Source: a virus
Reading direction: 5' to 3' (one strand)
IMG/VR virus record: IMGVR_UViG_3300009181_000083
Span: 1 to 57,720 of that record
Length of the DNA: 57,720 bases
Numbering within the stretch: the first letter of the stretch is position 1; every line of letters begins with the position of its first letter. The position numbers were made by a program, and so were the translations under genes. A model generated the notes under the pieces. That model searched no databases, was not told the DNA's origin, and worked only from the letters and a program-made list of their open reading frames with translations. Of this stretch, positions 4,099 through 53,801 are shown piece after piece.

Positions 4099-4103
4099 TT
4101 CGT

Positions 4104-12447: not shown

Positions 12448-12694
12448 ATTCCTCGAATTCGAATTGAGTTTTTGCGGAGACGAAGCAACCGCATTCAGCA
12501 CATCTTTTGGATGGTTTTATTAAAGAAGGGCACTTCTCGCAAATTGCAAGTCTTTCGGTTACCCTCTTTTCTTCTGAGACCGAGACTTTCGCCTGAATCG
12601 TATTCGACGCAGCTTTCCTAACTGTATTCGATAGGTTTTTGGACACTTTAAGCCCTTCTCTAAATAGATTTGCAAAATTTTTACTTACCGTCAT
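12428..12694 (-). CDS. Small zinc-ribbon protein of the tail operon
   Basis: This 88-residue protein has a basic helical N-terminal half (about 1-48) and a C-terminal cysteine cluster: CEKCP, then CAECGCF and CPLGKW. The pattern C-x2-C-P ... C-x2-C-G-C-F ... K ... C-P-L-G-K-W recurs in small uncharacterised proteins of many marine tailed phages, to my recollection. It should bind one zinc ion. The function is unknown; its position as the last gene after the receptor-binding-type proteins suggests a virion or host-takeover accessory. It starts in an ATGA overlap with the upstream gene. Confidence 0.6.
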   Translation of the reverse strand: MTVSKNFANLFREGLKVSKNLSNTVRKAASNTIQAKVSVSEEKRVTERLAICEKCPSLIKPSKRCAECGCFVSAKTQFEFEECPLGKW

Positions 12695-31000: not shown

Positions 31001-31228
31001 CGGTTCAATATTTGCGTAAAAAGTAAACCACTCATCTTGCGCTGGGAAGTTGGTATCTTGAGGATTCCTTACTCCTCTAAAAGTTGAGTAAGCGTAATAA
31101 AATATTCTCCAAGCACAGTCTCCAAGTCCGGAAAGTATTCTGCTATTAAAAGCGACGGCTAAAGAATTGTGCTCCAAATGACTTGGCCGGTGTCCTATCT
31201 TTACCTTTTTTGAATTAGGAAGTTTCAT
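28061..31228 (-). CDS. Baseplate/tail structural protein, 1055 aa
   Basis: I do not recognise a named family. It is rich in tyrosine, phenylalanine, tryptophan and glycine throughout (for example FRGVRNPQDTNFPAQDEWF and IFGNAGRATAPNG), typical of an extended virion protein. The last residues are a glycine run (NMSSGGGG). It follows the hub-like and small tail proteins and precedes the giant fibre candidates, suggesting it links the tail tip to distal fibres. The start ATG is preceded by GGAG (about 31237-31240), a reasonable Shine-Dalgarno. No transmembrane segment or catalytic motif seen. Confidence 0.5.
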   Translation of the reverse strand: MKLPNSKKVKIGHRPSHLEHNSLAVAFNSRILSGLGDCAWRIFYYAYSTFRGVRNPQDTNFPAQDEWFTFYANIEPKMGYGRISWPESPAGYPEGANVANPFLAWIFGNAGRATAPNGEKDKTSGEIHGYWSEPVRLGGLEVSPPELPEYDYGHASLNTVWHDSEFQRGCVAYIKNYKYESGRKEMQLLSLGIVAAARKHLRFVMDSASLGKYAPSFVPYVNGRGGIFRKKNASKDQIGQAMFYYLSYFRGSEDQRAKHNLTGNDVATDGFDFETFFSRQFLLAPNYSFPRYEKDGAGVEKIDSFGNLRIKYDPTGYPELYPEALTLGWAYPLQNTSELNIIKTVNDDNFLFKDLNNNSEFNTSPLPAYDLNRFCLSSIFIQSSDIAVQYEFESEVLLRGFLIDMYVNGNLYETIPIIPDYKYKADRSTGQTNENLKNSYKQYYIYQFNKIHHFPYPVKGKVSFRARGTEGIEVPTPKKHGTVCLGLKIPNAPDKFAILIKFAHVLEMKPSAADAYVIMRVATTEGLGLNPGDMDPVGHFNSDAVKNVFTNYIKYGVAYNLSSARLAENDVHVSANPVYESARKFISSHIKMADRYSLVDYAIERGRSVLYFKRYRFGMKKMGMDSFRGLGPSITQVGNRNMIGSVTETFIPITQGKEYIVLDMDKSSTTYIDYVWNGEKTSFKHGSIFTGGNYYYASYFSSPRIAIYELDGIITRTHVSRTQSSEIMVDDVKQKSPGAISNEWSMFMSYNLYHPSNSSAWKPEMYGDIMGALNARCLTSSYALENVSRTSKNVKLHLANVSWRQYDKPLIVESPSAYNYIEGANTNLQYAQWAGNNDYIEDFASSCSIYQKPYYIRSVTRVNEFDPTCDIIKVTIEGRLKALGSIIPGSFRENVRQWKSRMLAENVRTDENAIISYLLSMGIAHCKREVIGDVALDNQNFWAGNRPWGCCYPRFYFVKLIPYVSRNSIMYSDHYRQMEYYLRAMCNGFVNTQSELSATEIQTAIDTGDLGTQSVGGFDSAVGDYLFEDLMSNSYDNSQKNRSAVRPNMSSGGGG

Positions 31229-31741: not shown

Positions 31742-33120
31742 TATTTTGTTCCTGTTATATATCTTTCTATTATATTACTATTTGCCCCGCTAATTACCAA
31801 TTTAGCCACCATAAAATCATTATTAAACGAAATATTGTATTTAACTTCAATATTTATTAAAGAACTTTCAGAAATCGAATGTCCTGTTTTTATATATTTG
31901 GTTCCAGATACGAAAGATTTACTAGAATAACTTTCGAGACTTGGCCATAACCCTGTAGATAAATCAAAGCTACCAGTAAAACTTTTAGTATAAAAAGTCG
32001 TTAGACCTGACCCAGAAGCGATTGTCGGAAGAATATTGTTTATTATCCCCGTGCCTCCGGAAAACGTAACAACTGGAGTCGAAGTGTAGCCCGAGCCGAA
32101 AGACGTCATTTGAACACCTAAGACAGCGTCGTAATTTAAGCTAGTGCCCCCGAGAATTGCGCTACCAGAGGCTGAGTTGCCACCGCCGCCACTGAACGTT
32201 ATCGTCGGAATACTTAAATATCCATTTCCCCCACTATTTACTTGGACGCCCGTCACGAGTCCGTAGTAGCCGGTGATTCCAGAATAATATGATAAAGAAA
32301 TATCTAGAGGAAGAGATGTCGGAATTAGTGAGGATGAATTTGTTTGATAACTATAATCTAGAATTAAACCCCCGACTTTCGAGACGTTAGAATTCGACGA
32401 AGAGGTGGACAGCTTGTCTAAAAAATCCGACCCTTGTAGAATCTCAAATGTATAACTAAGATAAGGTTTCTCTACTCTTTCAACTGAAAACCGTATTGGA
32501 TAATTTCCCGCTGACGTGTCGAAAAAAGCTTGAGAAGTTAATTTTCCTAAAACTTCAGAACTTCCAGATATTATAACAACGCCAGGAGAAGAAGCTGAAA
32601 TTATTCCTGTGGAGCCGCTGGAAAAAGAAAACGAAGAAAATTGATCAAAATACCCAGAAAATAAACTAAACCCGCTAATAGAATCAGTAATTAAATATCC
32701 AGTTAAATCAGACTCAGAAATAAAAGAAGCCGGAATGCTTAATGAAAGAGTTGGTTTTTTAGATTTTATTTCTATAGACGCATCTAATACGGTGCCCGTA
32801 GTGTTAATGTAAAATTTTTCCGCATAGAAATTTTGTTTAAATCCAGAATTTAAAATTCTAGATCCATTAATAGAATAATTATAAGCCGTTCCCGAAAAAT
32901 TAGTTTGTATATTTACTGACTTATCTGGGAGATAGGATGAAAAATATCTATTTTCGGGATCAAAAATTTTTCCGCTTGTGAAGCTAAATTTATAAGTAAT
33001 TCCTTGTCCGCTAAAGCCGATTTCAGAACGCCCAGTGCAATTATTCAAAGACACATCCAGACTCGTAGAAAATCTATTTTCTCTTAAAATTTTTCGACTA
33101 GTATTTCCGGAAATGATCAT
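31741..33120 (-). CDS. Beta-rich tail protein with GxGYxSxPxVTFSGG repeats, 459 aa
   Basis: The N-terminal ~230 residues are serine-, glycine- and isoleucine-rich beta-strand. Around 290-370 there are two copies of a repeat: GGNGYLSIPTITFSGGGG and GSGYTSTPVVTFSGGTG. Such G-x-G-Y-x-S-x-P-x-V-T-F-S-G-G units are frequent in phage fibre and baseplate proteins, where they probably form stacked beta hairpins. Function is structural by inference. The start overlaps the upstream stop as ATGA at 33117-33120. Confidence 0.6.
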   Translation of the reverse strand: MIISGNTSRKILRENRFSTSLDVSLNNCTGRSEIGFSGQGITYKFSFTSGKIFDPENRYFSSYLPDKSVNIQTNFSGTAYNYSINGSRILNSGFKQNFYAEKFYINTTGTVLDASIEIKSKKPTLSLSIPASFISESDLTGYLITDSISGFSLFSGYFDQFSSFSFSSGSTGIISASSPGVVIISGSSEVLGKLTSQAFFDTSAGNYPIRFSVERVEKPYLSYTFEILQGSDFLDKLSTSSSNSNVSKVGGLILDYSYQTNSSSLIPTSLPLDISLSYYSGITGYYGLVTGVQVNSGGNGYLSIPTITFSGGGGNSASGSAILGGTSLNYDAVLGVQMTSFGSGYTSTPVVTFSGGTGIINNILPTIASGSGLTTFYTKSFTGSFDLSTGLWPSLESYSSKSFVSGTKYIKTGHSISESSLINIEVKYNISFNNDFMVAKLVISGANSNIIERYITGTK

Positions 33121-36100
33121 ACCAAGAAGTTCGTGTTTTGAAATTTTATATTAGGTTTATTATTGTAAATTAATGTTTCCATTGAGAGCGGTTTAGCGGG
33201 CCTGCTATTAAATTGGCATTTTAAATTTAGACCTCCTTCCCCAAGAGTCATATTCAGACTACTCAAGCCATTATTTACTGATAATATATCTTTCAATCCT
33301 GAGCTGATTGAGCTGCAAAAAAGCTCAGCAGAAAAAGATACTGCCGGACCTTGTATTGAAATGTTTTTTTCATCATAATATTTTTTTAATGTCTCATGAA
33401 ACTTTGTAAGCGTTGTGAATTGGTAGGCTGGAGTATCTAGTGTGTAACCTTGGTAATGCATAATGACGGGGTCTACTTCGGCGGTATCTAAGACCGTGTC
33501 TAACGCAAACGCGGGAGTCGATTGGTCCCCAAATAATCCTCTAATGTTTGGCGTTACGTTGTTTAAGGATATGTCTACAGAAAATGCATCGCTTTCTAAT
33601 ATCTTTGATATATCCGAAGAGTCTTCCAAACCACCCTTCACGAACTGCTCGAAAGGGACGAAAACTTCAGAACTTGTTTTACTCATTAATCTGATCTTAT
33701 AAGTTTCTTCGGAAGGGAATATTATGGATTCAAAAATGATTTTGTTTAAATTCTTTGTATACAACACTATCGCGGGCTCTTCCGAGCCTTCTATGTTTTT
33801 CATATACCATCTGCCCTTATTGTCCAGCGTAGCTTTATATTTACTATCACCATTTCTGGTTAGTCGGTAGTTGTGAATCCTGATCTGGTTAAGCATGGTT
33901 TCTTCATCTAGGTCGGCTGAGAGACGCCCGCTCAAACTCACTTTCATTAGTTGAGCGAAAACTATATCTTGAGGAGGCATTTTTCTTGTAATCTTAACTC
34001 TACGGCACTTAAGCGGGTTTGGTCCTTGAGCTGATTGTTTTACGGCTGACGCATCGCTGCTGATCTTCTCCATTTCGCTTTGAAAAACGCATATTTCATA
34101 TAAGACTGTTTTACTACAATCATTTTTTTTATCTTTTTTACTCTTAAGATCTGCGTTTTCATTCAGTTTACCTATCACTTCGCATAGTGATCTGATTTGA
34201 TTTTGCAACTCGATAGGGTTAATAAATTCGCCTGGTACATCATTCTTTACCTCTTCGAACGTGAAGAGACTCCTGTTATTCGCTATAGAATAAAGAAGAC
34301 CAAATTTAAAATCTCCCACCACCAAACTTGAAATATTCACCGGCAAGACCGCCTGAAGTAACGCAAGAGTTACGGGGGACAACTCTTTAAACCCTGGAGA
34401 ATATAGATCCGCCAAATTTAGTTCAAAGTGTTCAGAGGTCCCGACGGAATATTCAAATATTTCTATTTGTCTAATTAGCTCTTCAAAAACGCCGTAAGCA
34501 GAGCCAGGCCTTTCTGAATAAAATATTAATTTTTTTAACTGTTCACTATCGGCAAGCTTTTTTATATAATCACTTTCCGAAGATTTGCAGACTGTGTCAG
34601 CCAAATTCTTGGCGGCGATTAAAGATGAGTAAGCATTAAAATAACTTTCAGAACCTTCGTATACAGCGTTTAGTTTTTGTATCAAAAACCGACCCTCTGT
34701 AAAAAGCGGTATAGAATAAAGTTGTTCATCGTAATATTTTTGAACAGCAGGCATTGACGTTATTTCGTATTGACTTAATGAGTTTTCATTACCTGAAGAC
34801 CCCTCTTTAACATCAAAATAATCAGTCCAATAATGCTTCCCTAGAAAATCAGCAATATAAGATTCGATTCTTTCTATTTGATTTACTAATTCTTGATTGT
34901 AAAAGCCAAAATGAAAATCATACACGGCATCGCCTTCGGCATCGAATAAATTTTTAGATTGGATCTCTAATATAGAAGAGATAGCCTCTTCGAGTAGCAT
35001 TTCCGTATCGTTGCCTAAATTTAATTTTGAATTCATAACCTCATCAGTTACGGTCAAGAATCCCAAAGCTCGAAAAGCTCCTATTCTATAATTGTAAATC
35101 TGTCGCAACTTCGGGCTAAATCTTCCCAAGACGGCGGATGTGATGACTTCCTTATAGCCCCTTCCAGCTCCGCAAAAATCTAGACTTAAGAACTTTCCTA
35201 ATGGATTTTCTTTGTCAAAAACCTGTATTCCATTCAAACCAATAATATAATACGGCTCCCTGAGCCCAAACCATTTTGGAAAGATGCTGGCTAAATTCAT
35301 ATTGTAGAAGTTTTTGTCGCCAAGGCTCGACTCAAAAGAGGTGTTATTATCTCTAGCTTCTTTAAAATAAAAAGAAGAATACAAATTTAATTTTTTTTGA
35401 CTTAAGTCGTAGTCAAAGTCTTGAGATTGGATGACGAAATTTGAGCTAGAAGTCTCTAAATCTTCTAAATTAAGCTTCGTTGACATAACTGTCTCTTTAG
35501 AGGTATTGCTGGATAAATCAATTCCTTTTATGACAATCTCAGACGAACTCGAAAAATCTACAACGTAAGAGTAAGAGTATATGTCGCACCATTGGTTTAA
35601 AACATCTTTAAGTGTTCCTGAAAAATTCTTTTTTATTCTTCCTTTTGACTTATCTATCAAAGAAGGCGAATCGCTCTCTGTGAATATTTTAATTCCTAAT
35701 TTTTTCATCGCCGCTAGCAGCGTGCTAAACGAGTAAGTAACCTCAGAACTAGAACACTGGGAATCTTTAAAGTCTTCTTCCCCCACTAGAATAACGGCTC
35801 CGTAACCTCTTTGGATAGATTTTTGAAGATCCTTTGATTTGATGGTGATATAATTAAATTGGTCTTCGTTAATACATCCCGATAATTCCTTTTCGATACA
35901 TGCCGGCTCCTTCTGGATAAACTGACGACAGTCTTGTGAAATTTCCTCGTCGGTATAAGCTCCTAATGCGTCCAGTTCTTTCTTACATTTATCAGGCATT
36001 GCTATTTCCTTGAGAGTAAATCCTGATTCCAATATGCATGTGTCTTCGTCTATCTTTAACTTTTTAGCCAAATGATCCGCTGTAAAATGCAATAATTGCT

Positions 36101-36719
36101 TGTAATGAGTTGTCCTCATCTCTTCTTTTTTGAGATTTACAGCAGGGCAAAATATTTTTATGTCAGTTATTTTTGCTATTTTTTCCGACCTTAAATCCAG
36201 AGCAACATGTTGACCCAATACACCAACAAAAATTTTATTTAAAACAATAGAATTATCGTGTAAAGTTAATGTGAGAATTTTTTCATTGTTTTTCTTGGAG
36301 ATCGAGTAACTTATGATTTTAAAATTAAACAATTCGTAATTTTCAGCAGAACTCGAGTTACCGTTAATGGAGATATTGTAACCACTCCTTATACCTATAT
36401 GATTTTCATTTATATCGAAATCATTATCTGCTAGGACACTAAAAGTTTGCGCACCTCCCGAGCGTGTCAAGGTTAGGGTTTGGGTTGCGCTGGCTATATC
36501 TTTTTTTCTTTGATCTATGACGTCATTACGTTTGCTGACATTTTTTAGCGTTTTATCCAAGGCTAAATTAAGAATTAAGGCGGAAGGCTCTCCGTTAAAG
36601 CCGACGGTCAGAGATAAATTATAAACGTAACCATTGAAAATTTTATTTCCAAGAGCCGAGCTTACGGTTCCTATCACTCTTGTTATGTTTATGCTGCTGC
36701 TATTTTGAACTTTTGCCAT
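33117..36719 (-). CDS. Tail hub / tail-associated protein, 1200 aa
   Basis: The N-terminal third resembles phage tail hub (Tal or gp27-like) proteins. It opens with a beta-barrel containing VSKRNDVI and LTLTLHDNSIVLNK (about 60-165). Then FSTLLAAMKKLGIKIF and GTLKDVLNQWCDIYSYSYVV (about 335-400) match the usual hub pattern of a helix before an aromatic 'qWc..y.ys.' strand. The rest (about 450-1200) is a long mixed extension I cannot assign. It follows the LamG-like protein in the expected place for a hub. No lysozyme or peptidase motif was found. GGCAT lies just before the ATG. Confidence 0.6.
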   Translation of the reverse strand: MAKVQNSSSINITRVIGTVSSALGNKIFNGYVYNLSLTVGFNGEPSALILNLALDKTLKNVSKRNDVIDQRKKDIASATQTLTLTRSGGAQTFSVLADNDFDINENHIGIRSGYNISINGNSSSAENYELFNFKIISYSISKKNNEKILTLTLHDNSIVLNKIFVGVLGQHVALDLRSEKIAKITDIKIFCPAVNLKKEEMRTTHYKQLLHFTADHLAKKLKIDEDTCILESGFTLKEIAMPDKCKKELDALGAYTDEEISQDCRQFIQKEPACIEKELSGCINEDQFNYITIKSKDLQKSIQRGYGAVILVGEEDFKDSQCSSSEVTYSFSTLLAAMKKLGIKIFTESDSPSLIDKSKGRIKKNFSGTLKDVLNQWCDIYSYSYVVDFSSSSEIVIKGIDLSSNTSKETVMSTKLNLEDLETSSSNFVIQSQDFDYDLSQKKLNLYSSFYFKEARDNNTSFESSLGDKNFYNMNLASIFPKWFGLREPYYIIGLNGIQVFDKENPLGKFLSLDFCGAGRGYKEVITSAVLGRFSPKLRQIYNYRIGAFRALGFLTVTDEVMNSKLNLGNDTEMLLEEAISSILEIQSKNLFDAEGDAVYDFHFGFYNQELVNQIERIESYIADFLGKHYWTDYFDVKEGSSGNENSLSQYEITSMPAVQKYYDEQLYSIPLFTEGRFLIQKLNAVYEGSESYFNAYSSLIAAKNLADTVCKSSESDYIKKLADSEQLKKLIFYSERPGSAYGVFEELIRQIEIFEYSVGTSEHFELNLADLYSPGFKELSPVTLALLQAVLPVNISSLVVGDFKFGLLYSIANNRSLFTFEEVKNDVPGEFINPIELQNQIRSLCEVIGKLNENADLKSKKDKKNDCSKTVLYEICVFQSEMEKISSDASAVKQSAQGPNPLKCRRVKITRKMPPQDIVFAQLMKVSLSGRLSADLDEETMLNQIRIHNYRLTRNGDSKYKATLDNKGRWYMKNIEGSEEPAIVLYTKNLNKIIFESIIFPSEETYKIRLMSKTSSEVFVPFEQFVKGGLEDSSDISKILESDAFSVDISLNNVTPNIRGLFGDQSTPAFALDTVLDTAEVDPVIMHYQGYTLDTPAYQFTTLTKFHETLKKYYDEKNISIQGPAVSFSAELFCSSISSGLKDILSVNNGLSSLNMTLGEGGLNLKCQFNSRPAKPLSMETLIYNNKPNIKFQNTNFLV

Positions 36720-42142: not shown

Positions 42143-45100
42143 TTATCTTTTTGCAATTCTTGGACCCATTTTACCCATTTCTTTCGGGAATTTAGATTGT
42201 AATATATCTAAAACACCATCCATCATTGAGTCTGAATTTCCTTGATATGATCTTTCGTCATTTATATTAACTATGTTTGAATTAGAAACATTTGGAACCA
42301 TTCCTCCTGCAAATGATGCTATTCCATTTTTCATAGCTTCTGTGATTGCAGCTGTAAATTGTTCTGTTGAGAAATTAGGAATAAATCCTGCACTAAATCC
42401 TAAAGATTGTTGTTGAGCTGGGTTTAATATAGCGTGAGTCTCTGATGGGTTTTTAGGTTTCATATTTGCACCGGCTGGACCGAACATTCTACTATATACT
42501 TCACTGGCCGGAACTTCTATTTCAGCGCTGTTGATTACGGCATTTTTATACACGCTAGAACGCATCGGAACGGCGTCTCTATGTCCAGCGTAACTTGGGC
42601 TAGATAAAACCGCACGTTTTTCTTGCATGAACATGGGAGCGAAGCCTCTCGCGTAATTATTGATCTTCCCACTCCTAGCTGGTATAAACCCATTGGAATA
42701 ACCATTTAAAAGTTTTTCAAGCTCCGTCATGCTCTCTATCTGATTTTTATTTATTGATTCTTGTTCTTTGTTTAGCATTCCCGCAGCTTCAACCCCTTCG
42801 CTTGTCAGCCCGAGCCCTTGCGGAGTCATCGCACTTAAAGGATTTCCTGCCACGCTCCTTAGCGTAACTTGATTAGACTCTCCCAGAGCTGCAAAAGTGC
42901 GGGTAAGTGCAGGATTTTCTGGCGTCGTGGCGTTTAACAGGGCTCCGCCCGCAGCTTCCTTATCTAACCTTGCCAAGGATTCTTGTTTTATTAGAAGAGC
43001 GTCAGCCTTTTCTCTTTGCGAATCTGACATGTCAAGGTAATTCAGCATAATTTGCGAATCCGACTTTCCCGGGAACGTTGCCCTAGTTAAGCTGCCGTCT
43101 TTCTCTAGGAACGCCGTCATCCTTTGCTGCCTATCATTTAGGACTTTAGATTGCTGTTCTCTAATAGCGGGCATTAGAGTAGGATCTACTGATGCAAGGC
43201 TGGGATCTCGCATGTATTCTCGCAACATGAGGTCTTTCTTGTCTTTGATTTCCAACGCGCTTTGTTCAGCATTTGGACGTTGATATTCGTCAAGAGGGGC
43301 AGCGAATCCCGTTCGCGCTTTCACGGCGTCAGCCATTAACCCAAACGCTTTCTCTCTCTGCTCGCTTGATAAGAGAGCAAGTTCGCTGTCGCCAGACGGT
43401 CTAAGTGACTGCTCCTGCCGATCATATATGACGGGTTGGTCCCATAACCCACGTTTTTTTACGTGATTTATAATCTCGTCAGATGTTGAGGTAATTAGGT
43501 CTGGATCGTTTGGACTAGGGTTATTGCGCAAGCGTTCCATTGCGTAACTTAATTGGGCCGTTTTCTTGGCTTGTTCTTTTGCTTCTTTTTCTTCCTTTGG
43601 GTGGGGGGTGAGTCTGTCGATCTGAGCGCCAAATGCCCCCATTCCAAGAGCCGAGAAGGTGTTTTCGTTTGCGTGTTTCTCCATCTCTTGGGTTTTTGCG
43701 CGATTCAACCTTTCGGAAAAGGTCTCGCCGAGGCTGGGCCTGTCTCCATGGAAGTCCGTTATCCTCGCCAAAAGTGCTTCGTCGTTATTGTCCATAGGGG
43801 ATATGCCTTGTCTCACGGAGATGTCCATACTCTTCTTTTTTAGGACGGTATCTTCAACAGGTAGCTGTCGATACATGCTAAGAATCGCAGCTTCTTTATC
43901 CGACAGGTTGAGATTTTCTCGGTTTTTGACAGCCTTAGCCGTTCGAAAAGCTACTACGTTGGCTTCTATTCGATTATACTCGGTCTTATATCTTTCAAGA
44001 CTAGCGATTTTGGCGTCGAAATAAGCTGCGTCGCTCTTCGACATTGATAAATATTGATTTAAACGTTCGTTGTCCGACTGGGGCGACGATTGAGGAGTAT
44101 ACATAGCTGCTAATCGTGGATCGTGTCTCAATTTATTAGCAGCCACTCTGTAGCTATCATGCGGTGCTCTCGTTTCCGTTATGCGAGGTATGTCCACAGG
44201 GCTATCCAATACATCTCGTTTCACGCTTAGAAAGCGTTGCTTGCGCTCGTCAAGTAGTGCCTTCTCCTCTTCATAAACAGAATTTTTACGATTCGGAATA
44301 AACTTTACTTCACCACCATTTTCCCAATCTGTCACCTTTTCGAAAGCGTTAGGCGCCAGCCCCCTCAAGATTTCATTTTCTTTTGCCGCCACTTCTATTC
44401 CAGTTAGCTGATCCGCACGTTCAGCTCGCAATGCCGCAGCGCTCTGCTTGTTCGCAGACAGTCTTTCAGATCTTCCCTCTTCATAATTGGGTCGACTTCT
44501 AGCCCATTCGGTTTCAAACTCGATATCATCTTTTGTACGAATCTGACCTCCAGGAAAACGTTTGGAAATCTTACGAGACTCAGGGTTTCTTGCTTCTGCC
44601 AGCAACCGCTCATTGAGACGTGTTTTCCAGTTTGCATTCTCGTCTTCTCCTTGCATGGACATCGTCATTGCCCCAAGTTTATCACCTAAGCCAATTCCCT
44701 CTTCAATCATCCCCCCCACCGCATAACCCGTGTCCCAAACGCCCTTTGCCAATAGAATTCCGCCGATGATCGGACCAACTACCGGAATGAAAGGCAAAGC
44801 CGTATAAAGAGCTCCCCAGGCGGCAGCTTTCAAAGCCTCAGACTGGGCATCTTCTTTGCTAATAAGTCCTTTGTTATAATCTTTATTTATATCGTATAGA
44901 GAGGAGAGGGTGTGAAGTGCGCCCGCAGCTATGCCGATCTTAGCCATGGGGCCCATACCTCCAGCACCACCTCTAGGGCCACCTTTAGGCGTCTGACCTC
45001 CAGGCGCTTTAGTAAAGCGACCCCGAGCGTCCCTCAACGGCCCTTTGCCTCCAGATCCCTTACTCCCAGGAGTCTTAGCTCCAGAAGTCTTACCTCCAGG

Positions 45101-48100
45101 AGCCCCAGCATTTGCAGGACCACCCGCTCTATTCTGAAATCTATATTGACCGTAAGAAACTGCAAAATTGATCGCCTCATTACGCACCAATTTTATTAAT
45201 TCTTCAGTTACCTTTTCGCCCTTCTCAGCCTCTGTTAGCTTATTGTCGTTATAAATGTCATAGATGTTCTTACCCCCAAGAGCTATGTCACCGCCCATGA
45301 ACAATTTAGAATAACCGCCCATCTTATAACCCGGCCTGCTTCCCGCCTGACCAGCTTTATTCTGAGACTCTACTGAGGAAGTCTTATTTCCAGGTTTCTT
45401 AGCTCCAAAGTAGTCGTATCTTCCCGTCTTTGGATTAAAAATGTCCTGACCTCCGGGTTTGACAACTTTACTTTGTTTTGAACCAGCCTTCGAAGGCTTT
45501 TTAGCCGGTGAACTAAGAGGAGCTGCGGGCGGAGTAGTTGTTGATGGTGAACTAAGAGGAGCTGTAGGCGGAGTAGCTCCGGATGGTGAAGGAGTCCTTG
45601 ATGCAGCGGATAGTGATGAAGTAGGACTTTGTCCAAAGACATTTTTAACTAATGTTTGCGACAGATTTCCGCCCATGTATCCTGAAGACCCTCTCAAATC
45701 ACTTGGATTGACTTCGAAAACAATAGTGCCAACTTTGCCTCTTCCGCCAGAGTAAAATTCCCTCGACTTAACGCCAGCATTTTTTGCCGCTTCTAAAGTA
45801 GTTCCACCAACATCAACTCCGAAGAAGGCATTTTTTATCCCTTTCTGTTTCACTGAGGCTCTTATAGCGTGAACAGCGGAACTTTCCGCTGCTTTTTTAA
45901 AAGATTGAGTCATTTTAATAGCTTCATCTTTGGCAAGCCCAGCCTTCATATAGGATTGAATCGACGCCTCAGCGGTAGGATCGGCTTTAGTGGCTTTTAA
46001 AATTGTTCCACCTTTTATTATTTTTACATTTCCTTTATCATCTACCGCGACATGAACTCTTAACTCGTTGTAATAAGTGGGAACTTTTGCTTGAGTAAAA
46101 AATCCACTTCCAGTGCCTTTGCTATATTGATTTATGATAGAGGCGGTGTCGGAAGTTGTTAATTTACCTCCCCTTCCAAATACTCCTCTACTTTGAATAT
46201 TTGACTCTCCAAATGCTGTTTTAACAACTATATCTTCTCCTCCTGTTTTTTTATGAATTTGGGTCAATAAATTTTCTGGAGTAAGTTTTCCTTGCCTGTT
46301 TAGTCTAGATAGAATTCCATCTATTGGTTGAGATCTAGCTACCCCCGGAAGCTTTAATTCATCAAGTTTCGTTACTTTAGGATCGTTTAGTCCAAGAATA
46401 GATTTTCCTTTACCGCCGGTTTGCCCGAGTTCTGTAGATATTGTTCTTGATCCTTTCGGTAAATCGTTAGAGTTTATTAAAGCAGTTTCTACTGAGCTAT
46501 CCGGATTGACTTTTCTAAAACCGTCACCGATGTGATCCCAAACATACAATTTTCCAAGCGATGCTTGTTTCCTAGCTAAATTTGCTTTCTTTTGACCAAA
46601 AGCTGCAAAATTTGGAATATAACCATCAGCCAATCCAATACTAGCCAAACCTCTCGGTTCATCAATTGTGTTTGTTACTGCTAATCCAAAAGGATTACTT
46701 GATTGTTTTAATTTGTTGCTTTGATCTACTCTAATTGAATTAAATGGTACAAATTCAGACTCTCTGCGAATTGCGTCTCTTAAAGGGCTTTTAAAATTTG
46801 GAATGAACCCACCAGCCTTGCCCATGTCCGCCGCCGCTGCTTGATCTGCGCTAGACGCCTCAGGACCTCCGGTAAAATAATCTGAAACATCACTGGCCAT
46901 ATTGCTAAAATACGACATGACACCATCCATAAAACTGCCGTCCTTTTTCTTTTCCGAGTCTGGGTCTAGTCCTTCGACTATAATCTTCGCTTTCGTTATA
47001 GTTAGCCCTCTCTCGAATGACTTTCCTAAAGAAGTTTCAAATTCGTCCATTTTGGTTTTCGTGTCCTTGCTTGACTCATTTATTAAAGCGTCAGCCTGCG
47101 GTTGCATAGCTTTTTCAGATGCTCTAAGTCGCTGATCATCAGATCTTTTTTCCATGTCATCTTGCGTATTGCTCTGTGAATAATCAGCTATTGCCTGCTT
47201 TACTTCATCGGGCATTTTACTCAACCCAAGGTGAGCCTGCGTCTGTATTTTACCTATCGCATATAGATCTTGCGAATCATTAGCTTTCGCTCGCATAGCT
47301 CCGCCCAGCTGATAGTCACCCATTCGATCAGCCCGCCTAGCGTCTCTAAGTAAAGACTTCCTCAAGTCTCTCGCTCTTAAATTTGCACCGACTTCCGTTG
47401 CTCTGTCAAACGCTCCTTCACCGAAATTCAATCCTGCATATTTTTCTTTAACCCCTTTCGCGAAATTAACATATCCAGCATCAGCTGTATTTTGAGATCC
47501 AAATCGGTTTCCCAATGCATACTGCATGGACGCTCTCGCAGTCGGTTCGTCAGACGCCCTTTTGCCTTCGTAACTTAAAGATGCCGCCATTCCTCCTCCA
47601 AAAACCAACCTTCGTTTTAAAGCTAAAAGTGCAAGATCTTTCTTTTTTTTCTCATCTGCTTTTGATTCGATTACTTGCATTGCGTTTTGCGACTGTTTAG
47701 TTTCAGAAAGAAGTGCCTCTAGCTCGTTTTTTTGTTTAGGATCTTTAGTTTGTTTTATACTATTTTTCAGTGACGATTCCAGCTCTTGACTCGGACCTTG
47801 ACCAATAAAACGACTAAGCCCTGGCATTTTTTCAGCTTTAGAAGAAAGCATTGCACCAAATCTTGCTCTTTCCTGCCCTGATTCCATTGCCACGTCCACG
47901 TTTCTCCTCGCGTCTATTTCGGACTCTGGTCCGAAATTAGATGCGTAATCAACCAAATCATTAAGATAATCACCTCTAGACGATTTTTTTATGGCTCTTA
48001 ATTTTTTATTTTGTTCATTCTGCATTCGAATATCTGAGGATGGTCGCCTGAGATTCGTTAATTGATTTTTTGTTAGCTCTTCTTTCTCGCTTATCTTTTC

Positions 48101-51100
48101 ATTCGTCTGTAAAAAATTAATAAATGGCGTTATGAGTCTCCCTTTAGTCCCGGCGAGAACTTTGTTAGCGTCTCCTATGCCAGCTTTCTTCAGGGCCTCT
48201 CCAAGATTTTCAGGCGTTAAATTTTTAACGTCCAACTTGCTCATGTCAGCTTGACTAGACCAATCTGAGAATAAAGACTTTATCGCCTTTGGTTTTCTTT
48301 TTTTGTCATCTAATTCTAAAAACTTAATAGAAGCATCATTAACAACTTTATCTTTAGTCGCTGACTCTACCGCATCTGCTAAAATTGTTTGTTTTTCCGC
48401 TGATGTCCGTGCCGTCGCCAACTTCATTGCCGCTTGTGGATTACTTTTATCCATGCTTCTCATTAGCTCTGCTTGTTTTTTACCTAATTTAATAAGGACT
48501 TCTGGACTAACGCTCGGGTCTAAATAAGCATTGTTTAAGTCTTCAATGGATTGAGCTAATTGTCCTGCATTTTGAGTAAGTTTATTGAATTTATCAGCAG
48601 TGTTATCTTTTACTTTTTGAAATTGATCTGATCTTACGTCAGCTTCTGTTTGACTAGCTCCTGAAAAACCAGATATTATAGCTGGTGCGTTTTGCGCGAT
48701 AGCCATACCCACATTTGCAGCTTTTCCCCATCCAGTTCTACCACGAGCAAATCCTGAGACGATATCCATCCCAGCCATACCTAAGGGAAGCCCTCGTTGC
48801 ACGGCAGCAATCGTACCTACGTTATTTTGATTCGCTACCCCGCTCAACATCATTGACGCGCCTCCAATTAAACTTGATCTCATCATCCCACCCATCATGC
48901 TCGGACCTTCTTGAGGTTGGTAGTTACTCATACTTCCGTGCTTCACTCTGAACGCTGCCATATCAGCCAGTCGTTCATCTTTCCTTTTCTGCTCCCACCA
49001 ATCTGATATCTTATTGAAATTAGGAATGAAACCTTTAGACTTAATCAACCCAGCGCCTTTTTGCATCGAAGCTGAATCTGACAAAGCATTTTGAAGTCCT
49101 CCATGATCATTTATAGCTGATTCGAAAGTCGGCTGACTGGAATTACGAACATGAGGAAACGGTTCGGTATCGAATATTGCTGTGCCATTTCCAGCTTCTG
49201 ACTCTAGTTGTTTTACTTCATCTAAATAAGCAAAATTGGGGATAAATCCTGCATACTTGTTCCGAGATCTCAGTACTCTTCGAGCTTTTTGCTTTAGCGA
49301 CTTGGCGGATGTGGACTTTGCATATTGTTGTCGAGATCTTTGAGTAGGCGTGGCTTGTTGATTTGTAGAAATAACCTCTATTATATTTCTACTATCTATA
49401 TCTCTACCATTTGAATCTATGGTTAAGTCTTTGCGTTTTTGGACAACTTTCTTTAGTCCACTAAGCATATCTGTTTTTATTTGTCCGATGTTGACAGACC
49501 CGCCTTGTAATTTTACTTGTCCTAAAAATAATTCATTTTCTTTTTCATTTTTTTTATTTTCATGTACCGTTTTGATAAAGTAATCATAGCCGTTAAAATT
49601 TGCTTTAAATAGACCGCTGTCGATTATTGAGTCGCCTCCACCTATCAACGTTGTTTTAAAACTGTCGAGAGCTTTACTCTCTTGAGAAAGCCTTTCCTTA
49701 AGGATATCTTTATGGTTTTGGGTTTTTTGGGTTTCTGAAACGCCTTCCTTTTTCGTCTCAGTCATTAACTTTTCGATGTTGCGTAGCGACACGTCTGCTT
49801 GCTCGTTGTCCGCATACGTATTGTATAGCATCTTCGCCCCGTGATTCATTAGGAAATTAGGAATAAAACCTCTACTAGAATAAGGATTAACTCCTGTTTG
49901 TTTAATTGCATTTTCTCGATGCATTTGCCCAGCTTTTGAACTTTCAGGCGGATTAATAAACGGTTGAGAAAACCCAGGAACGTATTTGACCTTCTCTGAG
50001 GTGTTCATTATTCCACCGATAGATGATGGAGTTTCCACCACCGCTCCCGGAGAGTATCCTCCACTTAGAGCTCCTGCTCTTTCTGCGTCTTGATCTGCTT
50101 TGGGAATGTAGCCCATTGCTCTTCTTTTTTTAAGTCCAGTTGTCGGACTTACTGTAAAACCACCTTGAGCTAATGTGTTTGCTAATGCAGAACTTAAAGT
50201 GGCATTTGTTTGCAGTTGAGCGGCTTGTTGCTGCATTATAGTTAGCAATGCTTGAGCAGCAGTTGTTTGACTTATTTGCCCACTGACTATTTGTTGTATG
50301 ATTTGCGGTTGATTATTAAGTGTAGAGGTGATTAAACTTTGTAAATTAAGAATATTCTGAGAAGCGCTAGTTACTCCCAAAAGGCTTCTTACAGCCTCTG
50401 TTCCAAATGTAAGTAATTTTTTACCAATAGCGAAAGCTAAAGCTCCGACGATAACGATTCCGGGCCCTGCTATCGCAGCTCCGAGTCCCTTAAGCAGTGA
50501 TTCGCCAAATGACCGACCACTTTTCGCTCCTTCTTCATCGCCTTCTTTTTTATCAAATACATTTAAAGTTTTATTTATTATTGCTGTTCCGGTCTTAACT
50601 AGCGGAGTCAACAGCGGGGTGGCAATTGCCGCTCCTTTTTGTTGTAGATTAGCTTTAGTTATTTCTATTGTAGCGGTGAGACTTTGATTTAAAGCTTCGT
50701 TTTTATCAAAAGCTTGATCTGTCGCAGAGTTCGACGCTTGTAAAGCTCTAGCATAAACACCATTAGATCTGGAAAGGTCATTAATTAAAGAATTTAATAT
50801 GTTGATTTGGAATATGCCGCCAAGTAATTCTGCTGTTTTTGCTTTTTCTGTTTGACTTAAGTTTTTTGTGGCGTCGGTGTAGTTTTTTAATATACTTATA
50901 CCATCTAAGAAATATCCATTTTGATCTTTTACCGCAACTCCGATTTCTCGTAATTGGTCTATAACTTCCGGCCTCTTCATTCTAGTGAAGATTGTTTTTA
51001 ATGCGTTTCCGATAACCGCACCGCCACGACCTGTCGTTTGTTGAGCGGCGGTGATGGATGCGACTAATTGATCAATTGAGACTCCAGAATCTTGAGCGGA

Positions 51101-51739
51101 ACTACCGACTCGGCTCAGTGCTTGAGCTAAATCACTCGAACTAACCGCAAATTGAGAATCAACTTGAACTAATTTATTTACGATTTCTGAAGAAGTTAAT
51201 CCAGATTTATTAAAACTGTTTATTGCGGTTGTTAAAGCTGTAACCGACTCAGCTGCTCCGAGACCCGATATCCTACTTAGAATTAGAGCGTCATTGGTTC
51301 TCTTCAAGGTGTCTTCCATCGACAAACCTTGCCTAGCGAATTCTTTCGCAGCTTCAGCAACTGCACTAAAAGAAGTTGCAGTATTTTTAGCTATTGAAAA
51401 TAGAGAATCTCCAAACGCTTTCAGCTGCCCTTGAGATTGACCTAAAAAAGTATTTAATTCCGTCAATTCTTTATCAACTAACATCATGGATTTAGCTGCT
51501 TCAGACATAGCCTTAGAAACTAAATAAATAGCCCCAGACGTTACTCCGAAAGCTGCGACGCGGGCTGAAGCCGCTGCCATAGACTTGTCAAACATTGCTA
51601 GATCGCCAGTTATACGACCCAATGGCTGAGAAAAATTTACTTTGGCCGTTATCGGCTTGCCTGCGGCGGTTTGAAGAGCGCTTAATTGAGCTTGAGCCGC
51701 TGCCGTCGAAAGATTTAAATTAATATTATAAGTTGCCAT
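42143..51739 (-). CDS. Tail tape measure protein, 3198 aa, with embedded ATP-grasp-like domain
   Basis: Residues 1-400 are a TP901-type tape measure core (FDKSMAAASARVAAFG, KELTELNTFLGQSQ, TGRGGAVIGNALKTIFTRM). Hydrophobic stretches lie at about 413-440 and 2303-2336 (ALPFIPVVGPIIGG), as expected for a protein that is ejected and may insert in membrane. Ten GFIPNF-type motifs are scattered through it. Residues about 1715-2040 resemble an ATP-grasp enzyme (K1840, E1892-L-R-V-H, D1976, E2009-x-N2011). Proline- and glycine-rich linkers follow (about 2050-2085 and 2210-2270). About 2350-3000 is charged and helical. At about 0.15 nm per residue the tail would be near 480 nm. The ATG has GTAGGATT directly before it. 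Confidence 0.92.
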   Translation of the reverse strand: MATYNINLNLSTAAAQAQLSALQTAAGKPITAKVNFSQPLGRITGDLAMFDKSMAAASARVAAFGVTSGAIYLVSKAMSEAAKSMMLVDKELTELNTFLGQSQGQLKAFGDSLFSIAKNTATSFSAVAEAAKEFARQGLSMEDTLKRTNDALILSRISGLGAAESVTALTTAINSFNKSGLTSSEIVNKLVQVDSQFAVSSSDLAQALSRVGSSAQDSGVSIDQLVASITAAQQTTGRGGAVIGNALKTIFTRMKRPEVIDQLREIGVAVKDQNGYFLDGISILKNYTDATKNLSQTEKAKTAELLGGIFQINILNSLINDLSRSNGVYARALQASNSATDQAFDKNEALNQSLTATIEITKANLQQKGAAIATPLLTPLVKTGTAIINKTLNVFDKKEGDEEGAKSGRSFGESLLKGLGAAIAGPGIVIVGALAFAIGKKLLTFGTEAVRSLLGVTSASQNILNLQSLITSTLNNQPQIIQQIVSGQISQTTAAQALLTIMQQQAAQLQTNATLSSALANTLAQGGFTVSPTTGLKKRRAMGYIPKADQDAERAGALSGGYSPGAVVETPSSIGGIMNTSEKVKYVPGFSQPFINPPESSKAGQMHRENAIKQTGVNPYSSRGFIPNFLMNHGAKMLYNTYADNEQADVSLRNIEKLMTETKKEGVSETQKTQNHKDILKERLSQESKALDSFKTTLIGGGDSIIDSGLFKANFNGYDYFIKTVHENKKNEKENELFLGQVKLQGGSVNIGQIKTDMLSGLKKVVQKRKDLTIDSNGRDIDSRNIIEVISTNQQATPTQRSRQQYAKSTSAKSLKQKARRVLRSRNKYAGFIPNFAYLDEVKQLESEAGNGTAIFDTEPFPHVRNSSQPTFESAINDHGGLQNALSDSASMQKGAGLIKSKGFIPNFNKISDWWEQKRKDERLADMAAFRVKHGSMSNYQPQEGPSMMGGMMRSSLIGGASMMLSGVANQNNVGTIAAVQRGLPLGMAGMDIVSGFARGRTGWGKAANVGMAIAQNAPAIISGFSGASQTEADVRSDQFQKVKDNTADKFNKLTQNAGQLAQSIEDLNNAYLDPSVSPEVLIKLGKKQAELMRSMDKSNPQAAMKLATARTSAEKQTILADAVESATKDKVVNDASIKFLELDDKKRKPKAIKSLFSDWSSQADMSKLDVKNLTPENLGEALKKAGIGDANKVLAGTKGRLITPFINFLQTNEKISEKEELTKNQLTNLRRPSSDIRMQNEQNKKLRAIKKSSRGDYLNDLVDYASNFGPESEIDARRNVDVAMESGQERARFGAMLSSKAEKMPGLSRFIGQGPSQELESSLKNSIKQTKDPKQKNELEALLSETKQSQNAMQVIESKADEKKKKDLALLALKRRLVFGGGMAASLSYEGKRASDEPTARASMQYALGNRFGSQNTADAGYVNFAKGVKEKYAGLNFGEGAFDRATEVGANLRARDLRKSLLRDARRADRMGDYQLGGAMRAKANDSQDLYAIGKIQTQAHLGLSKMPDEVKQAIADYSQSNTQDDMEKRSDDQRLRASEKAMQPQADALINESSKDTKTKMDEFETSLGKSFERGLTITKAKIIVEGLDPDSEKKKDGSFMDGVMSYFSNMASDVSDYFTGGPEASSADQAAAADMGKAGGFIPNFKSPLRDAIRRESEFVPFNSIRVDQSNKLKQSSNPFGLAVTNTIDEPRGLASIGLADGYIPNFAAFGQKKANLARKQASLGKLYVWDHIGDGFRKVNPDSSVETALINSNDLPKGSRTISTELGQTGGKGKSILGLNDPKVTKLDELKLPGVARSQPIDGILSRLNRQGKLTPENLLTQIHKKTGGEDIVVKTAFGESNIQSRGVFGRGGKLTTSDTASIINQYSKGTGSGFFTQAKVPTYYNELRVHVAVDDKGNVKIIKGGTILKATKADPTAEASIQSYMKAGLAKDEAIKMTQSFKKAAESSAVHAIRASVKQKGIKNAFFGVDVGGTTLEAAKNAGVKSREFYSGGRGKVGTIVFEVNPSDLRGSSGYMGGNLSQTLVKNVFGQSPTSSLSAASRTPSPSGATPPTAPLSSPSTTTPPAAPLSSPAKKPSKAGSKQSKVVKPGGQDIFNPKTGRYDYFGAKKPGNKTSSVESQNKAGQAGSRPGYKMGGYSKLFMGGDIALGGKNIYDIYNDNKLTEAEKGEKVTEELIKLVRNEAINFAVSYGQYRFQNRAGGPANAGAPGGKTSGAKTPGSKGSGGKGPLRDARGRFTKAPGGQTPKGGPRGGAGGMGPMAKIGIAAGALHTLSSLYDINKDYNKGLISKEDAQSEALKAAAWGALYTALPFIPVVGPIIGGILLAKGVWDTGYAVGGMIEEGIGLGDKLGAMTMSMQGEDENANWKTRLNERLLAEARNPESRKISKRFPGGQIRTKDDIEFETEWARSRPNYEEGRSERLSANKQSAAALRAERADQLTGIEVAAKENEILRGLAPNAFEKVTDWENGGEVKFIPNRKNSVYEEEKALLDERKQRFLSVKRDVLDSPVDIPRITETRAPHDSYRVAANKLRHDPRLAAMYTPQSSPQSDNERLNQYLSMSKSDAAYFDAKIASLERYKTEYNRIEANVVAFRTAKAVKNRENLNLSDKEAAILSMYRQLPVEDTVLKKKSMDISVRQGISPMDNNDEALLARITDFHGDRPSLGETFSERLNRAKTQEMEKHANENTFSALGMGAFGAQIDRLTPHPKEEKEAKEQAKKTAQLSYAMERLRNNPSPNDPDLITSTSDEIINHVKKRGLWDQPVIYDRQEQSLRPSGDSELALLSSEQREKAFGLMADAVKARTGFAAPLDEYQRPNAEQSALEIKDKKDLMLREYMRDPSLASVDPTLMPAIREQQSKVLNDRQQRMTAFLEKDGSLTRATFPGKSDSQIMLNYLDMSDSQREKADALLIKQESLARLDKEAAGGALLNATTPENPALTRTFAALGESNQVTLRSVAGNPLSAMTPQGLGLTSEGVEAAGMLNKEQESINKNQIESMTELEKLLNGYSNGFIPARSGKINNYARGFAPMFMQEKRAVLSSPSYAGHRDAVPMRSSVYKNAVINSAEIEVPASEVYSRMFGPAGANMKPKNPSETHAILNPAQQQSLGFSAGFIPNFSTEQFTAAITEAMKNGIASFAGGMVPNVSNSNIVNINDERSYQGNSDSMMDGVLDILQSKFPKEMGKMGPRIAKR
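45507..45584 (-). repeat. 39-bp tandem repeat, proline-rich linker
   Basis: Two 39-base units (45507-45545 and 45546-45584) encode the sequence TPPxAPLSSP twice, with differences mainly in two short stretches. They form part of a Pro/Ser/Thr linker directly after the ATP-grasp-like domain. Confidence 0.85.
45600..46600 (-). other. ATP-grasp-like domain inside the tape measure
   Basis: Residues about 1715-2040 of the tape measure. DIVVKTAFGES (K1840) with FGRGG after it resembles the phosphate-contacting lysine and glycine-rich loop. NELRVHVAVD (E1892, R1894, H1896) matches the 'E.RVHV' strand. FFGVDVGGT (D1976) and FEVNPSD (E2009, N2011) match the metal-binding 'D ... ExN' end. GFIPNF-type motifs occur just before it. 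ATP-grasp enzymes join carboxylates to amines or thiols using ATP. Assignment rests on motif order only. Confidence 0.5.
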
Positions 51740-51790: not shown

Positions 51791-52786
51791 CTACGCGCCG
51801 TGCATTTCGATGAAATCTTGCATTGTTAACGAACCGCCTTTTTTCTTAGCGAATTCTTCAAGGGAAGTAGCTCCACCACCAACCATGTTTTGTAGTTCTT
51901 CCTTAGTTGCTCCAACATAACTTGTTCCACCTTCTCGATTCAAATCAACCTGGCGTGAGCTAGTGGATAACGAATCATACCATTCTATCATTTTATCAGG
52001 ATCCGCCATGATATCCGACGGTGGATTTACGTTTTCTTTTCTAGACTCCATCAGAGACTTAAAATATCGTCCTTGAGAAAATAAATTAACTTGCAAAATC
52101 GTTAAATTTGTAACATGTGTCCCGTAAAATGACGGAATATCTTCAGAGGCTAAGCTGAATAAATTAATAAAAAAATAACACGCGCAAATCCTTTTGATTT
52201 GATTATGTGAAAATTCTGCATAAAAGTTATTTAAGACCTTAATCAAACTAGAAATATCACTTTGAGTTAAATTATCAAACTCTTCTCGGGAGAATAACTG
52301 TTGAGAAAGCTGTTCATCTTTAAAAAAAGAATTAAAAATAACCAAGTCGTTCATTTTTTGAGAAACAAAATCTTCAACGCAAAATCCCACGCACTCTTCT
52401 TTTTCGTCTATTAATTTTTTTAATTTCAATTCGGTTTCGGCTTTTTTTTGCTTTGTTTCTTTAATTTGTCTTTTGATGATTAAATTTTTCAGAAACATTT
52501 CTAAGTCGGAAATTTCTTTTTCTAATTTTTCTATTTCTATTTCGTTTTCTATCGGCCAGTAACCTTCTTTCAACAGGAGCTGTAGCTTATCTTCTCTTTC
52601 TAAAAGTCCGTTCTTTTTTGCGATGCTAAAAAAAATAGAACTTTCTCCCGCATGTCTTCCATTGTTTATTTCTGAAAAATGTTTAATAAAAATGGGTTTC
52701 TCCATGTATGTTGACACAGAAAAACCCATTACTATTTCTTGATATAGTCTTTTAAAATGATTTATTTTTTGCTCGGAATCATTCAC
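51791..52786 (-). CDS. Probable tail assembly chaperone, second protein, 331 aa
   Basis: It precedes the tape measure, where tail assembly chaperones are encoded. The middle is a highly charged coiled coil (about 78-128; ENEIEIEKLEKEISDLE, then EKKKAETELKLKKLIDE-like heptads), followed by a helical globular part. The C-terminal ~70 residues are flexible, with NPPSDIMADPDKMIEW and VGGGATSLEEFAKKKGG. Start is GTG (52784-52786), one base after the previous stop TAA. A stem-loop covers that stop, suggesting re-initiation or frameshifting. Chaperones of this kind coat the tape measure during tail assembly. Family not confirmed. Confidence 0.5.
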   Translation of the reverse strand: MNDSEQKINHFKRLYQEIVMGFSVSTYMEKPIFIKHFSEINNGRHAGESSIFFSIAKKNGLLEREDKLQLLLKEGYWPIENEIEIEKLEKEISDLEMFLKNLIIKRQIKETKQKKAETELKLKKLIDEKEECVGFCVEDFVSQKMNDLVIFNSFFKDEQLSQQLFSREEFDNLTQSDISSLIKVLNNFYAEFSHNQIKRICACYFFINLFSLASEDIPSFYGTHVTNLTILQVNLFSQGRYFKSLMESRKENVNPPSDIMADPDKMIEWYDSLSTSSRQVDLNREGGTSYVGATKEELQNMVGGGATSLEEFAKKKGGSLTMQDFIEMHGA

Positions 52787-52805
52787 GTTAAGGCGCCGAA
52801 GCCTT
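52784..52805 (-). promoter_or_regulatory. Stop/start junction with stem-loop (coupling or frameshift candidate)
   Basis: On the minus strand AAGGC (52801-52805), a six-base loop and GCCTT (52790-52794) form a stem that runs into the stop codon. It is followed by TAACGTG, where TAA ends the first gene and GTG starts the next in the +1 frame. CCT TAA just before could allow a +1 slip. Confidence 0.3.
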
Positions 52806-53510
52806 GATATCTTCTTTAGATAAACCAGAGTTTATCCTACCTATGTAATACGATCCTTTTTCAATTACTTTTGCTAAAAATTCGTCACCAGAATCTTCAA
52901 TTGCATTAAATCTTTCCGTTCTCTGATCGAAAGTGCCTTCGCCAAAGATGCAAGATTGAACACCATCCTTATCTGAATAAATTAAATTTAAAACAAACCA
53001 AAGATTAAGCAAATCATTAGCTCTTTTCTCAGCGGTATTATCGAATAAAGAAGATTGTAAATTTTCATAATCAAAGATTTTTTGTCGAAGGTCGTCGTAT
53101 TCAGTTTTAAGGGCAGAAATCTGCAACTCTTTTTCAGCGTCGGAAAGCTCCGCGACAAGCTTGATCGACTCCATGTCCACTTCAAGTTTTATTGCTCTTG
53201 AATAATTATCCGAATGAACTTTTTTCTCTTCACTCGAGGGAGTCAGACCTTCTTGTTGGAATTTTCTCAATAGGTAGTTCTTCGTAACCAAACCGAGTCG
53301 GATTCCTTCGGAGACTTTGACAGAATAAAAAATACTAGCCTCATCTTGCATTTTCCTCGTCGGGTTCAGAATAGAAAACTTTTGAGGAACTTTTTGTTCC
53401 ACTTCTTTGGAAATCGAAATCTCCTCACCAGCTTCGTTTTTTTCCGTTGTTGTTTCTTTAACTTTCTGAAGTTTATCTACTTCGAAAGTGAATAGCCATT
53501 TTTCTTTCAT
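52788..53510 (-). CDS. Probable tail assembly chaperone, first protein, 240 aa
   Basis: A charged protein with a beta-type N-terminus (KEKWLFTFEVDKLQKV, repeated KVE/EEI segments), the motif KFSILNPTRKMQDEASIFY (about 45-62) and a long helical middle (AELSDAEKELQISALKTEYD). The C-terminal half (LLNLWFVLNLIYSDKD onward) is compact. Its place two genes upstream of the tape measure and its coupling to the next gene match a G-type chaperone, with the next as the T-type partner. No Shine-Dalgarno at the ATG. Confidence 0.5.
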   Translation of the reverse strand: MKEKWLFTFEVDKLQKVKETTTEKNEAGEEISISKEVEQKVPQKFSILNPTRKMQDEASIFYSVKVSEGIRLGLVTKNYLLRKFQQEGLTPSSEEKKVHSDNYSRAIKLEVDMESIKLVAELSDAEKELQISALKTEYDDLRQKIFDYENLQSSLFDNTAEKRANDLLNLWFVLNLIYSDKDGVQSCIFGEGTFDQRTERFNAIEDSGDEFLAKVIEKGSYYIGRINSGLSKEDIKASAP

Positions 53511-53519
53511 ATTTTTTTG

Positions 53520-53801
53520 TTATTTTAATGTAATTTTTATAGAATTAAAGCTGCTTTCAACGCCTCTGACGGTATCATTTCCGGCGTCTAGAATCTTTTT
53601 TCTAATGTGGTTATATTTATCAATGCTGAAGTAATCTATATTTTTTACAAATTCTTTGGAAGATTGAGCTTCCATTTTCCTCAACATGAGTTCGTGCTCT
53701 AATTTTAAATCATCAATTATTTCAAAATACTTCTTATATAAAGAAACGATATTTCTATTTAATTGAAACGCCAAAAATTCTTTTAACTTATCTTCTTCCA
53801 T
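53520..53801 (-). CDS. Small helical tail-operon protein, 93 aa
   Basis: Mostly helical and charged (KLKEFLAFQLNRNIVSLYKKY, then LEHELMLRKMEAQ), without recognised motifs. It is the first gene after the terminator and opens the chaperone/tape measure unit. The ATG has GTAGGATT directly before it, the same octamer as before the tape measure. It could be an assembly cofactor; no evidence beyond position. Confidence 0.5.
   Translation of the reverse strand: MEEDKLKEFLAFQLNRNIVSLYKKYFEIIDDLKLEHELMLRKMEAQSSKEFVKNIDYFSIDKYNHIRKKILDAGNDTVRGVESSFNSIKITLK

Follow-up and report, generated by a model that had tools for sequence, protein, structure and literature searches.

A GFIPNF hexapeptide at the joints of exchanged modules in a family of phage tape measure proteins

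What is a six-residue peptide, GFIPNF, doing again and again inside a single phage tape measure protein (TMP)? The question is raised by IMG/VR virus record IMGVR_UViG_3300009181_000083, all 57,720 nucleotides of which were analysed here (the window). An original prediction, made from the letters of this DNA, had identified a 3198-residue protein as a tape measure, counted about ten GFIPNF copies bounding its modules, and proposed that these copies serve as protease sites, chaperone docking sites or tube-lining contacts. The first point is borne out by the PF10145 profile, which matches the protein at an E value of 1.9e-28, and the protein is also matched by eight PHROG tape-measure families. 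As set out below, GFIPNF marks the places where modules of this TMP family, exchanged independently of one another, are joined, and we read it, with due reserve, as a recognition element at those joints.

The window TMP carries five exact GFIPNF copies, one GYIPNF and four degenerate copies (GYIPKA, GFIPAR, GFAPMF and GMVPNV), whose residue numbers are given in Table 1. The span from 42287 to 50113 that had been assigned to the repeat corresponds exactly to residues 543 to 3151, and the idea of some ten copies with very little change holds for the six strong ones but not for the four degenerate ones. The six strong copies differ from one another by synonymous codons. Windows of at least 5/6 identity to the motif number about 0.01 per shuffled window TMP, and across 500 shuffles every hexamer occurred at most twice; together with the counts from cellular loci given below, these shuffles reject a chance repeat as the origin of the copies.

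A degenerate DNA pattern encoding GFIPNFA was scanned in a viral collection and in cellular genomes, each of which returned at least 119 matching loci. Among the matches listed, 101 of 119 viral loci held at least two copies per open reading frame (ORF), and 117 of 119 cellular loci held a single chance-like copy; the two multi-copy cellular loci (L141 and L194) both lie on metagenome-assembled contigs and are phage-like in look. Added scans with Tyr and Val variants gave a family set of 303 loci (the L numbers used here), some of which share a contig. Two or more copies lie in one ORF at 239 of the 303 loci gathered, nearly all of them from the viral collection. The motif is strongly conserved in relatives, which clears one half of what the original prediction had named as counting against it, namely lack of such conservation. 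In 40 whole virus records, hand-picked from the motif-bearing loci for a strand check, the 182 motif matches fell on a single strand per record, with 2 matches for the reversed pattern, and among the matches listed they cluster in one gene-sized stretch, bar one place in G023. There (G023:C1:45248, the record of L049) a motif-coding match stands about 21 kb from the TMP motif cluster, on the same strand, and it may be either chance or a second motif-bearing gene. Neither of two linker domains of the family, B and C, has a match at E ≤1 among 50,697 phage isolate records and, judged by these linkers, the phage group seems to be uncultured. A search for close relatives of the window TMP gave four pattern matches, none of which was confirmed.

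The positions of the copies reveal a common plan. In 50 complete relatives, which are 1862-3089 residues long, strict motifs number 0 in residues 1-520, 168 in residues 521-1700 and 0 beyond residue 1700; a length cut at 1800 residues excluded one more complete ORF (1697 residues, motifs at 1479 and 1530) from these placement counts. The first copy stands at about residue 531-571 or 625-650. The PF10145 profile was matched by all 42 N-termini scanned (the window and 41 relatives), and in 45 of 51 proteins a hydrophobic, transmembrane-like stretch, called by Kyte-Doolittle hydropathy only, lies at most 260 residues ahead of the first motif. The family plan shown by these placements begins with a conserved TMP core (about 540-625 residues), continues with a cassette zone and ends in a C-terminal part, where 936-1854 motif-free residues follow the last copy. 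Small linker domains frame the cassette zone, A at its entry and B or C at its exit. Profile comparison joins B and C in one domain family (probability 99.7); A is less clearly related to them, because shared motif ends inflate its scores (98.4 against B and 96.2 against C). Some A linkers (L010, L071, L297, L313) bear a second, degenerate form, IPNFAFGGG ... NTSEYVVPNF/Y, which brings to mind the GPEAIIPL-type motif seen in lambda-like TMPs. The window TMP follows the family plan over residues 1-908 and is odd after that. The copies are not periodic and none lies in the C-terminal part of the relatives, which rejects a tube-lining or periodic tape contact; the same distribution disfavours the earlier proposals of a tube-lining contact or chaperone docking, though the window TMP does have one strict copy near its C-terminus.

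The motif also marks the places where homology stops. In an all-against-all comparison, with block ends counted inside cassette zones, 19,707 of 26,938 homology-block ends (73%) were no more than 12 residues away from a motif in each of the two proteins, compared with 3% of random points. Masking the motif left 61% of ends within 10 residues and 72% within 20, where random points gave 2% and 8%. At the DNA level, base identity between L106 and L382 is 0.35 in the 60 nucleotides before the motif, 18/18 within it, and then 1.0 and 0.98. The same identity step is seen in L015/L106 and L001/L015, and on the opposite side in L049/L112. The fifth displayed pair, L017/L391, has no step at the aligned motif, because the module shared there begins within a longer segment, where KFVPNY forms a degenerate joint. 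Since identity steps and homology-block ends fall at the motif, modules have been swapped there, and the early suggestion that the motif bounds separate modules is upheld. A survey of phage protein mosaicism reports a mosaic signal in TMPs, with no genuine recent case confirmed (PMC10684548); the identity-step pairs found here are such recent cases of TMP exchange.

What is kept at the joints is a short linear motif. Over 730 distinct contexts, information is confined to positions -3 to +7 and is low outside them, the consensus being A, (A/S), x, G, (F/Y), (I/V), P, N, (F/Y), A. Among one-off variants, the Pro shows 0 changes, the Gly 7, the last aromatic 14, the Asn 23 (mostly to Ser or Gly), the Ile/Val position 26 and the first aromatic 100, with Leu and others as substitutes at the aromatic positions. 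Motif codons vary at all six positions, so that the conserved thing is the peptide, and this synonymous spread rejects a DNA-level signal as the main cause of conservation. A cut of the Asn-cyclisation type is weakened by the Ser and Gly variants at the Asn.

The modules between the linkers are diverse. All 50 complete ORFs hold one to four variable segments of more than 110 residues (one, two, three and four in 30, 11, 4 and 5 proteins, respectively), and 174 segments of 100-699 residues fall into 104 clusters at 35% identity, which, with the window segment after residue 1706, make up 105 module representatives. For most of these no Pfam match was found at E 0.05. Matches above the curated Pfam cut-offs are to SNase (2.2e-9, L099), GNAT (7e-8, L060) and the cytidylyltransferase-related HIGH_NTase1_ass (3.2e-8, L047). 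An 812-residue segment in L023, L038 and L118 forms a very long module inside the tape measure; it matches HATPase_c, of GHKL type, just below the curated cut-off (6.7e-5 in L023) and, weakly, the C-terminal part of phage G1 gp67. One frequent module shows G-x-x-F-E...D...K and was read as PD-(D/E)XK-like from this residue pattern; a profile made of 25 such sequences detects the module in 77 of 240 ORFs but not in the window. Beyond the pattern, this label finds no support in the Protein Data Bank (PDB): a fold search with a model of the L107 region gave no match at E ≤0.001 (best E 1.4) and a profile search of PDB sequences with the same alignment gave 0 matches. The HAD-, kinase-, zincin- and ADP-ribosyltransferase-like labels were given by eye only, as was that of a rare HExxH module (L002, L060; weak Pfam match, 0.17). 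PADLOC assigned four families with one member each (best E 1.9e-4), and NCBIfam gave weak matches only. A built-in protease domain, of the kind found in MARTX toxins, was not detected by Pfam among the 105 representatives. Nor does the ATP-grasp-like label, originally given to the segment after residue 1706, find support: residues 1706-2110 have no Pfam match at E ≤0.05, and the segment has only a meaningless match in the PDB (E 0.95) and no homolog in the family set. Judged by profile matches, some modules are putative enzymes, and most are without a known relative.

The AlphaFold2 model of the L107 region (445 residues, 25 sequences) has a mean predicted local distance difference test score (pLDDT) of 68.5 and a predicted template modelling score of 0.41. 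Its stretches below pLDDT 50 are residues 1-24, 101-107, 345-356 and 418-445, plus a short one at 284-286, and its four motifs, at 20, 102, 350 and 423, all lie inside low-confidence stretches. The linkers and the intervening module score about 65-90 in most of their blocks. This one model supports the view that the motifs would lie in flexible linkers between folded domains.

How might such a motif act? We propose that the modules would be cargo leaving with the TMP at infection, and that the motif would lie in a flexible linker and expose there an aromatic Pro-Asn turn for a single factor to recognise. The likeliest such factor would be a protease of phage or host that separates the modules in a polyprotein-like manner, and the next likeliest a partner that would bind and hold the joints as assembly proceeds. 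That GFIPNF is recognised at the joints within a modular cargo zone, with processing put first, is the reading we tentatively favour, at a little under an even chance. Processing is ranked ahead of partner docking, a structural turn or self-contact and a recombination seam, in that order, because the layout is polyprotein-like (folded units, flexible joints, one joint motif, swapped units). The motif positions and the predicted flexible linkers would fit cleavage with release of cargo. T4-type prohead-protease site motifs differ from GFIPNF. The fuller proposal, that the TMP is a tail-borne cargo polyprotein whose exchangeable effector enzymes are cut at GFIPNF joints, seems to us possible but doubtful; if true, each lineage would refit the proteins that it delivers at DNA entry, for example against host defences. 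For lambda, the TMP is reported to act at the inner membrane during injection (PMC13190303), and delivery of the modules would, by this analogy, be plausible.

Several observations weigh against processing of a cargo zone. The flexible-linker claim comes from one model (that of the L098 region, with a mean pLDDT of 41, was not used), and low pLDDT may equally reflect a thin alignment. The block ends counted above, being those of high-scoring segment pairs, are not mutually independent, and the conserved linkers contribute to them. The tolerance of Ser and Gly in place of Asn suits a turn more than a cut that strictly requires Asn, and cuts at every motif would release the TMP core and the small linker domains as well. 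Among the conserved neighbour gene families scanned, there was no protease profile match. Most modules match no known family, such that 'enzyme cargo' fits a minority, and the window TMP is itself an odd member, in which linkers C and B lie 735 residues apart and one motif stands close to the C-terminus.

Of the alternatives, the one that survives best is that a dedicated partner, such as a chaperone encoded by the conserved upstream genes, binds the motif without any cut and would keep the modules, folded or unfolded, in register while the tail assembles. An exact short motif in predicted flexible linkers would suit such a contact, and two conserved gene families stand immediately upstream of the TMP, both present in the window, but the C-terminal part, where the main chaperone or tube contact is expected, is motif-free in the 50 complete relatives, and we regard this docking as unlikely. 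More unlikely still is a purely structural role, in which the Pro-Asn turn would pack on the copies of other TMP subunits or cap neighbouring domains, and no other protein would recognise it. The substitutions do follow turn-like rules, with an invariant Pro, an Asn that gives way mostly to Ser or Gly, and aromatics replaced by Leu and others. However, the motif is unpacked and low-confidence in the only usable model (a monomer, and as such blind to inter-subunit contacts), and a mere spacer would not stay so constant while both flanks swap. That the 18 bp are kept as a short homology for module exchange, and not for the peptide, is highly improbable. In its favour, the breakpoints fall at the motif, identity in the 18 bp is 83-100% at the displayed junctions, and the codon identity of GFIPNF pairs within an ORF is 0.68 against 0.59 expected from codon usage. 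Against it, each of the six positions shows synonymous codon variation, and full identity over the 18 bp is limited to 21 of the 256 pairs.

Table 1. Features of the window tape measure protein, in order from its N-terminus
Feature	Coordinates	Strand	Basis or remark
Tape measure protein (TMP, P0001), 3198 residues	42143..51739	-	PF10145 and PHROG
TMP core, residues 1-542, motif-free	50114..51739	-	PF10145; residues 1-560 as query match 169 family-set loci
Hydrophobic transmembrane-like stretch, about residues 415-433, ahead of cassette zone	50441..50497	-	Kyte-Doolittle only
GYIPKA, degenerate, residue 543, start of linker A	50096..50113	-	GFIPNF or similar here in relatives
Linker domain A, residues 543-629	49853..50113	-	Wider 536-640 matches 79 loci
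GFIPNF, residue 624	49853..49870	-	Motif scan
Module 1, residues 630-830	49250..49852	-	No clear family-set homolog; one weak 58-residue match, E 0.003
GFIPNF, residue 831	49232..49249	-	Motif scan
Linker domain C, residues 831-908	49016..49249	-	Matches 64 loci; at most about 70% identical to relatives
GFIPNF, residue 903	49016..49033	-	Motif scan
735-residue stretch separating linkers C and B, peculiar to window TMP	46811..49015	-	One weak match, E 0.004
GFIPNF, residue 1644	46793..46810	-	Motif scan
Linker domain B, residues 1644-1711	46607..46810	-	Matches 167 loci; profile comparison puts it in one domain family with C
GYIPNF, residue 1706	46607..46624	-	Motif scan
Residues 1712-3016: segment originally called ATP-grasp-like, then low-complexity and tape-like part	42692..46606	-	Relatives not found
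GFIPAR, degenerate, residue 3017	42674..42691	-	Motif scan
GFAPMF, degenerate, residue 3032	42629..42646	-	Motif scan
GFIPNF, residue 3118, unusually near C-terminus (80 residues from end)	42371..42388	-	Motif scan
GMVPNV, degenerate, residue 3146	42287..42304	-	Motif scan

The genes upstream of the TMP (51791-53801, minus strand) belong to group-wide families of about 246 residues (100 loci), 251 residues (86 loci) and 96 residues (46 loci), the first two being those directly upstream. These almost unannotated upstream families are tail chaperone candidates, and one neighbour family matches the phrog_14 minor tail protein at 2.4e-8. Downstream of the TMP lie very large ORFs, all on the minus strand, at 12691-16077 (1128 residues), 18769-28053 (3094 residues), 28061-31228 (1055 residues) and 33117-36719 (1200 residues); none of the four has a confident Pfam match, and they are probably tail-tip, fibre or adhesin proteins. 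A replication block occupies 706-8063 on the plus strand, opposite to the TMP, with a DnaB-like helicase, a primase Toprim, a PD-(D/E)XK nuclease and a DNA polymerase III alpha, as well as a PHP and an RNase T exonuclease on separate ORFs. The best listed matches of the window polymerase among isolates are about 24-31% identical.

Tape measures are usually viewed as rulers and DNA conduits, and interchangeable modules would make the tail a cargo carrier. GFIPNF would be a ready marker with which to mine for entry-stage effectors, it makes TMP processing during infection a directly testable question, and the family would provide clean recent cases of domain exchange in TMPs, unlike the earlier survey. 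Full-text searches gave no paper on the motif, and none of the papers listed describes, judged by title and opening of the abstract, a TMP cassette zone of this kind; most subscription papers and all bioRxiv preprints fall outside the scope of these searches.

Several known systems share part of this design. Other PF10145 (PhageMin_Tail) TMPs have the same N-terminal core match and a position beside tail genes, and the present family differs from them by its motif-jointed cassette zone with exchanged modules. The TMPs of mycobacteriophage TM4 and of enterococcal and SPbeta-like phages, as reported in two sources (PMC1796659, PMC10194240), likewise bear an enzyme domain inside the TMP, in their case a built-in cell-wall enzyme, for which lysostaphin-type annotations are listed; here, by contrast, several modules stand in a row (nuclease, acetyltransferase and other), bounded by one motif, and are swapped. 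Phage polyvalent proteins (Iyer et al. 2017, PMC5512222) are also very long and multi-domain; they carry nuclease-, GNAT-, ART- or peptidase-type domains and are proposed to enter the host together with the DNA. As to effector-type domains within one polypeptide, the polyvalent feature, a minority of the modules here have a Pfam match (SNase, GNAT and nucleotidyltransferase-related) and most have none; the carrier is a TMP, a term absent from the text of PMC5512222, and the joints share one hexapeptide. The ejection proteins of T4 and SPN3US, processed by prohead protease, are cut at short sites and enter the host in mature form, as two sources relate (PMC10052503, PMC7411985), but these are head proteins, whereas the protein here belongs to the tail. 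Finally, MARTX toxins hold up to five modular central effector domains between conserved delivery arms (PMC6315884). The analogy is one of layout, with no shared sequence claimed. No cysteine protease domain or other regular protease was recognised here, and the targets would presumably be bacterial hosts. Set beside these systems, our analysis suggests that what is new is an exchangeable cassette zone, jointed by one motif, within a tape measure.

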